From a virus, in the IMG/VR virus record IMGVR_UViG_3300042397_001578, positions 1 through 33,801 of that record: a DNA stretch of 33,801 bases. One strand, given 5' to 3'. The notes below the pieces were generated by a model, which was not told the DNA's origin, made no database searches, and saw only the letters and a list, made by a program, of their open reading frames with translations. This document shows positions 30,947-33,029 of this stretch, in pieces. Within the stretch, counting starts at the first letter, position 1, and the number at the start of each line of letters is the position of its first letter. A program made the translations under genes and the position numbers.

Positions 30947-31410
30947 GGCTCCTCCGGAATCGGAAGCGCGCGAATAGCGCCCTCCATGCGTTGCGAGCCC
31001 ATGCCGAGCCCGTCCTCGTGCGAAAGGTGTTTGACGCAATTCGCACACGCCTCCCGCATCGCCTCCGCCCCACGGCGGTAGGCGGCGTCGCGCTCGCGCG
31101 TCAGATCTTCAATGCGAAGCTGCTGCTCAAGCTCGATAGAGCTGTGGTCGTTGAACAGCATGATCATCTCTTTGGATGACTCAGCGGCTTCCTTCTTGGC
31201 TTCGTCGCGCTCATTCATAAGATTCAGGATAAACGCATGCGTAGCCTGAAGGACCGTGACCGGGTGACGGTGGAGACCCGGCTCCACAAGCGCAGCCAGG
31301 TCGAGTACGTGTCTGTTCGTCTCGTCGAGCATCTTCTTCCATGCGTCACGATGCTTCGTCACGATCTCCAGCTTGGCTTCCAGTTCTTCGATGGTCATGG
31401 CTTCGCTCAT
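30943..31410 (-). CDS. Hypothetical coiled-coil protein (155 aa)
   Basis: ATG 31410 follows GAGGAAGCC and a second ATG follows four codons later. The protein is mostly helical: EAMTIEELEAKLEIVTKHRD, a hydrophobic helix (TVLQATHAFILNLMNERDEA), then EQQLRIEDLTRERDAAYRRG and AEAMREACANCVKHLSHEDG. No catalytic motif seen. Adjacent to the helicase loader with a 4-bp overlap. Function unknown. Confidence 0.55.
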   Translation of the reverse strand: MSEAMTIEELEAKLEIVTKHRDAWKKMLDETNRHVLDLAALVEPGLHRHPVTVLQATHAFILNLMNERDEAKKEAAESSKEMIMLFNDHSSIELEQQLRIEDLTRERDAAYRRGAEAMREACANCVKHLSHEDGLGMGSQRMEGAIRALPIPEEP

Positions 31411-32138
31411 GGCTTCCTCTCGATGAGCTTGGTGAGACCGGAGAACATGCGCCGCGAGAACTGTGGGCCGTACGCCGTCTCGATGGCTGGTGGCGTTAGC
31501 CCGCTCGTGATGATGGTCTGGTAGCCGTTCTCCTCGCGGTGACGCAGCACGCGGTACAGGTCACCGTCCTGGTCCTTCTGCCCGATGACGTCGTCGATGA
31601 TCAGAGGGTTCCAGCTGAAGGCGTGCGTGAGTTCGCGAGGATCTTCGCCAAGCTTCGACGAACGACGGCAGGTGCAGATGTCGTCGGCGTGCATGAACTT
31701 CCAGTTGAACATGCGCTGGTCGATGATCTTGTTCGTGGCCTTGGCGGTGGGCTCGCCGGAGTGGACGATCTTTTCAACCGAGGTCCACGTCGCGGAGTAG
31801 GCCAGCATGTAGCGGGCGACTGGGAGGGCGAGCGCCGTCGAGGTCTTGCCGACGCCGGTCTTGCCGACGAGGGTCAGGAATGGAACCTGGACACCGGTCT
31901 GGTCGAGGGCAGGCGTTAGCTCAGCGATGGCTGGCGGCACGCCGTCTGCGAGCATGGTGGCCACGACTTGGCGGAAGCGTTCGGGGATGCAGCGGATCTT
32001 GTTGACTGCTTCGACGACGGTCAACTCCTTGCGGGTCAACTCGGTCTTGTCGACAGGGGTATGCGCCTTGGCGCGCATCGCCTGCATCTTCAGGGTTGTG
32101 TCCATCGCCTTGGCGATGATGGTCTCAAGGTCATCCAT
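31407..32138 (-). CDS. DnaC-like helicase loader ATPase
   Basis: 243 residues from ATG 32138, behind GGAGGAAACC; the longer frame from 32183 overlaps the upstream gene. Walker A LVGKTGVGKTSTAL (90-103) with G-K-T at 97-99, Walker B NPLIIDDVIG (177-186), a sensor-like QTIITSGLTP (207-216), and SRRMFSGLTKLIE near the end (228-240) as arginine-finger region. This is the DnaC/IstB-type AAA+ layout. It would load the replicative helicase at the origin recognised by the adjacent replication protein. A Cys pair (CTC at 155-157) sits between the boxes. Confidence 0.85.
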   Translation of the reverse strand: MDDLETIIAKAMDTTLKMQAMRAKAHTPVDKTELTRKELTVVEAVNKIRCIPERFRQVVATMLADGVPPAIAELTPALDQTGVQVPFLTLVGKTGVGKTSTALALPVARYMLAYSATWTSVEKIVHSGEPTAKATNKIIDQRMFNWKFMHADDICTCRRSSKLGEDPRELTHAFSWNPLIIDDVIGQKDQDGDLYRVLRHREENGYQTIITSGLTPPAIETAYGPQFSRRMFSGLTKLIERKP

Positions 32139-32808
32139 GGTTTCCTCCGTACTTGTTGATTCCAGCGAGCCAGTATTCTTCACCGGCTCCTTCGGGGTGG
32201 TCGTTGGTTTGCAGCAGGTTGTTCGACAGGTTGGGCCGCTTGACCTGGGCTGGTCGAGGGTTCGCTCGGCGCAGCCAGTTGCGGGCGAAGGCGTCGTAGT
32301 CCTTGTACGTCTTGCCGCTTGCCTTGAGCCAGTCGAGCATGGCCGTGACCTCGGTGTTCAGGTCGAGCCCCCTCTCCTTGGCTATGTCGATGTGGTCCTG
32401 CTTAGGAGCCCAGCCGTCTTCGGACGGCTTGGGCACGCGCGGAGCGCGCTTCTTCTTCTCTAGTATTGTCTTGTCTTGTATTGTCTTGTCTTGATGATCA
32501 CTTGAACTCACGTGAACCGATGTGAGCTCACTTGAGTTCACGTGATGCTTCTTGAGCTCACGCTTTGCGGCCATCGCCTCGCGCTGGTCGAGCAGCTTCT
32601 TGCAGCGAGCAGCGAAGGTTGGCCGTAGACCAACGGCGTCGAGCTTCGAGGCATCCTCAGCGAAGGTCGCTGGAAGGTCGTCGCTCTCGTGGTCGACCGT
32701 CCACCTTGTGATGCGAAGCCACGCGATGACGAGGTCCACGCGCCCACACTGGGCAAATGCTTCGAGTGAAGCCAGCTCGCTTGTGTGTTGTTTGTACCAG
32801 CCTGCCAT
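32131..32808 (-). CDS. O-like replication initiation protein (225 aa)
   Basis: ATG 32808, AGAGGTAACTG upstream. N-terminal helices (MAGWYKQHTSELASLEAFAQ, then CGRVDLVIAWLRITRWTVDH) read as a small winged-helix-like part; residues 84-120 form a Ser/His/Lys/Gln linker with two copies of QDKTI (106-110 and 111-115); the C-terminal part DGWAPKQDHIDIAKERGLDL then DYDAFARNWLRRANPRP (171-187) matches the tail of many phage replication initiators that recruit the loader or helicase. The next gene is the loader, overlapping by 8 bp. The linker-coding DNA holds the candidate origin. Confidence 0.75.
   Translation of the reverse strand: MAGWYKQHTSELASLEAFAQCGRVDLVIAWLRITRWTVDHESDDLPATFAEDASKLDAVGLRPTFAARCKKLLDQREAMAAKRELKKHHVNSSELTSVHVSSSDHQDKTIQDKTILEKKKRAPRVPKPSEDGWAPKQDHIDIAKERGLDLNTEVTAMLDWLKASGKTYKDYDAFARNWLRRANPRPAQVKRPNLSNNLLQTNDHPEGAGEEYWLAGINKYGGNHG
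32463..32561. other. Candidate replication origin: phased iterons plus 15-bp direct duplication
   Basis: On the plus strand four copies of the 11-mer YKTGARYTCAC lie at 32501, 32521, 32531 and 32551: CTTGAACTCAC, TGTGAGCTCAC, CTTGAGTTCAC, CTTGAGCTCAC. Steps of 20, 10 and 20 bp match the helical turn and are not multiples of three, so they do not follow the reading frame. TCACGTGA palindromes occur at 32508 and 32538. Next to them GTATTGTCTTGTCTT occurs twice in perfect tandem (32463-32477, 32478-32492). Inside the replication gene, this mirrors lambda ori in gene O. Confidence 0.65.
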
Positions 32809-32957: not shown

Positions 32958-33029
32958 CATCCCCTAATGGTTGGGGATGAACGAGAGGGTGCCGCGATTA
33001 AGCCTGTCACACCCTCTCGTTTCTTTTTT
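32958..33029 (+). terminator. Plus-strand tandem hairpins ending in a T-tract
   Basis: First hairpin CATCCCC (32958-32964) with GGGGATG (32973-32979). Second: AACGAGAGGGTG (32980-32991) pairs perfectly with CACCCTCTCGTT (33010-33021), followed by T at 33022, C, then TTTTTT (33024-33029). The T-tract is on the plus strand, so it would stop rightward transcription, although all genes here read leftward. On the minus strand the hairpin is followed by GTTCATCCCC, no T-tract. It may end an antisense or stable RNA, or insulate the replication operon. T-tract overlaps the stop codon of the gene at 33028. Confidence 0.7.

Follow-up and report, generated by a model that had tools for sequence, protein, structure and literature searches.

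What are short, helically phased repeats doing in the middle of a phage protein-coding gene? The window (the whole stretch of DNA analysed, 33,801 bases making up one entire IMG/VR virus record) carries such repeats within a gene for a 225-aa protein. The first-pass annotation had read them as a lambda-like replication origin embedded in the gene that encodes its initiator, made up of four 11-bp elements beside a 15-bp tandem duplication. The features considered here are as follows.

32131–32808, minus strand: gene for the 225-aa putative initiator, within which the array and the pentamer tract sit
Residues 1–91 of the 225-aa protein: helical N-domain
Residues about 83–117: linker, encoded by the candidate origin
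Residues about 130–185: O/DnaT-like C-domain
31407–32183, minus strand: DnaC-like helicase loader gene (phrog_50, E 1.7e-7), which overlaps the initiator gene and is its immediate downstream neighbour
32496–32565, minus strand: seven head-to-tail 10-bp units, AAGCGTGAGC TCAAGAAGCA TCACGTGAAC TCAAGTGAGC TCACATCGGT TCACGTGAGT TCAAGTGATC
32539–32544, no strand: CACGTG palindromic core 1
32509–32514, no strand: palindromic core 2, also CACGTG, set three helical turns (exactly 30 bp) from core 1
32464–32493, minus strand: pentamer tract CAAGA CAAGA CAATA CAAGA CAAGA CAATA, six 5-bp repeats, T-poor on the gene strand
32449–32488, no strand: second weakest 40-bp duplex of the 33.8-kb window by nearest-neighbour energy (z = 3.6)

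Read on the gene strand, 32496–32565 is a tandem array of TCACGTGANN/TCAAGTGANN units, the first two of which (AAGCGTGAGC and TCAAGAAGCA) are degenerate, followed by two bases and then by the CAAGA/CAATA pentamers. It is the most strongly 10-bp-periodic 70 bp of the window, with a lag-10 identity of 0.63, whereas 100 runs of a second-order Markov model of the whole window gave at most 0.53. All four positions given earlier for 11-bp elements are occupied, three of them by the sequences described (CTTGAACTCAC at 32501, CTTGAGTTCAC at 32531 and CTTGAGCTCAC at 32551), but the copy at 32521, TGTGAGCTCAC, is two bases off the consensus, and the 11-mers are not the repeat unit; they are the joins between adjacent 10-bp units. 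The core TGARYTCA taken alone is not significant (4 seen versus 2 expected, with 11 of 100 shuffles reaching 4), so the evidence lies in clustering and phasing rather than in the word. Between 28860 and 33024 we found no DnaA box (TTWTNCACA, at most one mismatch). Cumulative GC skew has its maximum at 32991, close to the right-hand end of the window; because this peak is confounded by gene orientation and by a linear, possibly incomplete record, it was not used to place an origin.

The 15-bp duplication (GTATTGTCTTGTCTT, 32463–32492) is indeed perfect and richer in AT than its surroundings (67% versus 41% for the gene), but its real structure is that of three pentamers occurring twice, which encode QDKTIQDKTI. 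No fold was predicted for 32452–32497 on either strand. A strictly T-free run was considered as the defining feature of the tract and rejected, given the CAATA units in the window and one T in the related gene of L008; we therefore label the tract T-poor. Long T-free runs are, moreover, not rare in this GC-rich genome. We propose that the tract is an unwinding and helicase-entry element.

The protein itself gives partial guidance as to function. Pfam gave no match for the 225-aa sequence, and among PHROGs it matched just one family of unknown function, weakly; nor did searches of Pfam and NCBIfam assign the initiator to the lambda O family. Its C-domain shares 35% identity over 70 aa (E 3e-3) with O-like 'primosomal' proteins of Klebsiella phages, four of its relatives match phrog_1032 and one matches phrog_1408 (both 'replication initiation protein'), and one of nine family members has a weak match (E 0.028) to the DnaT DNA-binding domain PF17948. 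The predicted structure of the N-domain is all-helical (pLDDT 85) with no match among solved structures, and DNA binding therefore receives no support from the fold. The linker was modelled with low confidence and is predicted to be disordered, the full-length model had a pTM of 0.34 and the whole-protein model found no convincing match in the PDB; neither missing match is evidence for a new fold. A DnaC-like loader gene also adjoins the initiator gene in L006, L008, L009 and L013, and in the window a gene for a RusA-type resolvase lies further along, beyond the loader gene. A scan of bacterial genomes for host assignment returned zero relatives. In the O-like genes of Klebsiella phages RothD, klb_E and ST13-OXA48phi12.5 (L022–L024), we observed inverted-repeat units of about 20 bp, of TGCCATCWGATGGCA type, in the linker; these are likely an unannotated origin.

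Protein searches of IMG/VR identified twelve distinct related genes (L002–L008, L010, L013, L014, L020 and L021), with N-domain identities of 25–80%. All twelve carry an array at the equivalent linker position, built from TCACGTGAGC/TCAAGTGAGC units in L002 and L003, TCACGTGATA in L004 and L005, TCACGTGATG/TAACGTTACA in L006 and L007, CCACGTGGTA/CCACCGGGTA in L008, CCACGTGGCA in L021, TCACGTGGCA in L010 and TCACGTGAAC/TCACATCGAT in L013 and L014. Across the 13 genes every spacing between CACGTG cores is 10, 20 or 30 bp. The pentamers differ by clade (CAAGA, ACAAC, AGAAC, AGAAG or GAGAC; on the T-rich strand, TCTTG, GTTGT, GTTCT, CTTCT or GTCTC), and what all clades share is the 10-bp grid with its CACGTG cores and, 3' of the array, a T-poor run of pentamers. 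Alignment of the homologues upheld the array, its exact 10-bp phasing, strong synonymous constraint and a weak tract on the same side, but not the literal 11-mer, the letters flanking the CACGTG core being different in L006/L007, L008, L020 and L021.

Could the repeats be an ordinary low-complexity linker, in which slippage has produced repeats coding for a hydrophilic spacer? The predicted disorder of the linker and the slippage-prone nature of pentamer runs would fit, but the 10-bp period is out of frame, and when the gene was recoded synonymously with the protein fixed, the observed lag-10 and lag-20 values were attained in none of 2,000 trials. Differing pentamer-encoded peptides (QDKTR, QHNTT, NRTEQ and RREEK) are specified by the same DNA pattern. 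A linker under selection for protein alone should also be freest at synonymous sites, and these are frozen: in six pairs of genes, which are not fully independent because L002 enters twice, codons for the same residue were identical at 97 of 101 positions in the iterons (p 8e-9) and 55 of 58 in the pentamers (p 4e-5), compared with 599 of 818 elsewhere. The effect is also seen in single pairs, both for the window versus L002 (26 of 27 versus 41 of 81, p 5.5e-6) and for L006 versus L007 (p 8.5e-4). The iterons and pentamers are thus both constrained at the DNA level, as had been suggested for the repeats from their spacing. The low-complexity linker is already contradicted by these data, and we give it almost no credence.

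A second alternative is that the repeats form hairpins in the mRNA and thereby adjust how much initiator or loader is translated. The RNA of the array does fold more stably than shuffled sequences (z −4.4), as does that of most homologues. However, palindromes set on a 10-bp grid fold by necessity, and an array built of them will fold well as RNA or as DNA. The predicted pairing varies among relatives, with L010 and L021 barely exceeding their shuffles, which makes a conserved RNA structure the poorer explanation. RNA structure has no requirement for 10-bp phasing, and the pentamers are equally frozen yet unstructured. We therefore regard regulation by mRNA hairpins as highly improbable. A somewhat less remote, although still improbable, alternative is that the array is an operator, bound by the protein or by a repressor to control transcription or lysogeny, with replication starting elsewhere. 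Phased palindromic sites are typical of cooperative repressors too, but this array lies mid-gene and not at a promoter, is accompanied on the same flank by a weak pentamer tract throughout the family, and has a layout that recurs in the linkers of unrelated initiators (see below) and not near repressor genes.

We conclude that the array and tract are very probably the replication origin of this phage, located inside its own initiator's gene in the segment encoding the flexible linker. The best reading is of an intragenic origin that would be of the lambda kind by mechanism, with membership of the lambda O family left unsupported. Several observations converge on an intragenic origin: a 10-bp periodicity beyond the needs of the protein sequence, frozen synonymous codons in both iterons and pentamers, the restriction of CACGTG spacings to 10, 20 or 30 bp in 13 genes, a weak-duplex tract lying on the side where lambda has one, relatives that match replication-initiator families together with a DnaC-like neighbour, and scans for pentamer runs and CACGTG grids that lead mainly to the linkers of other phage initiators. 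The layout, in which the part of a replication initiator gene that codes for the linker holds a repeat array and an easily melted tract follows 3' on the gene strand, also has published precedent in the O genes of lambda and lambdoid phages (PMC7466680, PMC5043065). The origin proposed by the first-pass annotation, as a candidate, is thus supported by the array, constraint, phasing and weak-tract side seen in the homologues. For a phage known only from metagenomes, this provides a precise and testable origin candidate.

By analogy with lambda, in which O binds iterons that lie within gene O and the A+T-rich DNA next to them opens (PMC5043065, PMC7466680), we infer how initiation might proceed. 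The N-domain of the 225-aa protein would bind the 10-bp units, with one molecule or dimer per helical turn; molecules so spaced would all face the same side of the helix and could form a compact complex. This complex would bend or strain the DNA such that the adjacent, weak pentamer tract opens, and the opened tract would be expected not to form structure of its own. The C-domain, together with the DnaC-like loader, would then place a host DnaB-type helicase on the opened strand. More speculatively, the initiator may also recognize the pentamers as a single strand, as RctB and plasmid Rep proteins do with their own repeats.

The comparison with lambda holds for layout and polarity. In both cases, phased initiator-site repeats occupy the linker-coding middle of the initiator gene (PMC7466680, PMC5043065), a weak tract (A-rich in the lambda record) follows directly 3' on the gene strand, and the gene containing the known or candidate origin is followed by one for a helicase loader, as in O/P. 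Descent from lambda, which the label 'lambda-like' might imply, is not supported, given the missing O family match, iterons of 10 rather than 18 bp and a DnaC-like loader in place of P. The iterons of the annotated lambda record are 18-bp palindromes spaced 20–24 bp apart, whereas those of the window are continuous head-to-tail 10-bp units, and the lambda tract is irregular and A-rich, whereas that of the window is made of regular pentamers. Plasmid iterons are about 20 bp long and usually lie outside the rep gene, and, unlike in iteron plasmids, no Rep-type initiator was found here. The origins of F, P1, RK2 and R6K likewise place helically phased direct repeats beside an unwinding element, and iteron plasmid initiators can bind the single-stranded repeats of that element as well (PMC5043065, PMC10797057).

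Precedents for single-strand reading come from other origins too. In ori2 of Vibrio cholerae, the RATCA pentamer of the unwinding element is bound single-stranded by RctB; the 3-nt DnaA-trio of bacterial oriC is likewise bound as a single strand, and plasmid RepE contacts thymidines in the unwinding element (PMC10797057). The pentamer tract of the window is placed as these short repeats are, beside double-strand sites. However, the initiators differ, the window has no DnaA box near the array and single-strand recognition of its pentamers is a hypothesis.

To what extent is this arrangement general? A scan of IMG/VR found 48 stretches with (CAAGA)4 and 73 with (AGAAC)4. When the longest ORF of at least 120 aa was taken and the window family was left out, the run-containing ORF was on the T-poor strand in 25 of 28 and 44 of 47 cases, respectively; these counts are approximate, as at least L098 was scored on the opposite strand even though an initiator-matching frame is on the T-poor one. 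Without any selection, the commonest PHROG families among run-containing ORFs were replication initiation, primosomal and DnaD-like/O-like, with 17 of 47 ORFs matching one DnaD-like family alone. For ORFs picked by eye as initiator-like, 16 of 20 matched an initiator, primosomal or DnaD-like PHROG. DnaD-like and O-like initiators with NRTEQ or QDKTR linkers (among L028–L142) have a T-poor pentamer run in the linker, as the window does, and in part of them the run comes directly after repeats phased at 10–12 or 20–24 bp, whereas their N-domains and iteron sequences differ from those of the window family. Upstream of (AGAAC)4, periodicity reached a level seen in no more than 5% of control segments at 18 of 59 distinct loci, with lag 11 the usual period; only some of these loci thus have clear phased iterons.

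A complementary scan for CACGTG on a 10-bp grid returned 16 stretches, five of them from the window family and most of the remainder in the linkers of a second initiator family. That family (L146, L147, L148, L150, L152, L153, L156 and L158) carries a near-identical 10-bp array of TCACGTGAYR in its linker, has a very short N-domain ending in the basic stretch RRQADRERQARRR, and has a C/T-rich tract after the iterons but no pentamers. No N-domain homology between the two families was detected (hhalign probability 0.5%), which leaves a shared basic-helix reader as no more than a conjecture, and the charge count before the linker is unremarkable in the window protein.

These scans raise the possibility, which we put forward tentatively, that the pentamer tract is a general and exchangeable origin module. 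Such a module, a short 5-bp repeat that is T-poor on the gene strand and read as single-stranded DNA by phage initiators or loaders, would be a phage counterpart of the DnaA-trio, joined to one-turn iterons in the linkers of many unrelated initiator families. Some of these phages may use a short basic helix just before the linker to read ACGT-core iterons, independently of the remaining N-domain. A literature text search that covered only a minority of subscription papers found no description of pentamer peptides or DNA runs in phages, and we therefore do not claim priority. Because pentamer scans alone recover many initiator families and no prior description was found, origins may be predictable in many phages by a portable rule, namely one-turn iterons and then a pentamer run, inside an initiator gene. 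If the module exists as envisaged, searching for a simple pattern could locate the origins of many uncharacterized phages.

Other loci were noticed along the way. DNA methyltransferases formed the second class among genes with pentamer runs, and long (CAAGA)n or (AGAAC)n runs occur in or beside DNA cytosine methyltransferase-like genes in L029, L032, L034, L038–L041, L045, L050, L056, L058, L068, L072 and L116. Close copies differ in the number of units in these runs, a pattern compatible with phase variation through slippage. In a DnaD-like initiator gene at L044:8837–9700, a (CAAGA)4 tract is directly preceded by 12-bp CCCTACGCAARA repeats, about seven in number. In the window itself, the intergenic segment 32980–33034 has a 12-bp inverted repeat without mismatches (AACGAGAGGGTG/CACCCTCTCGTT) and then a run of T, and is terminator-like.
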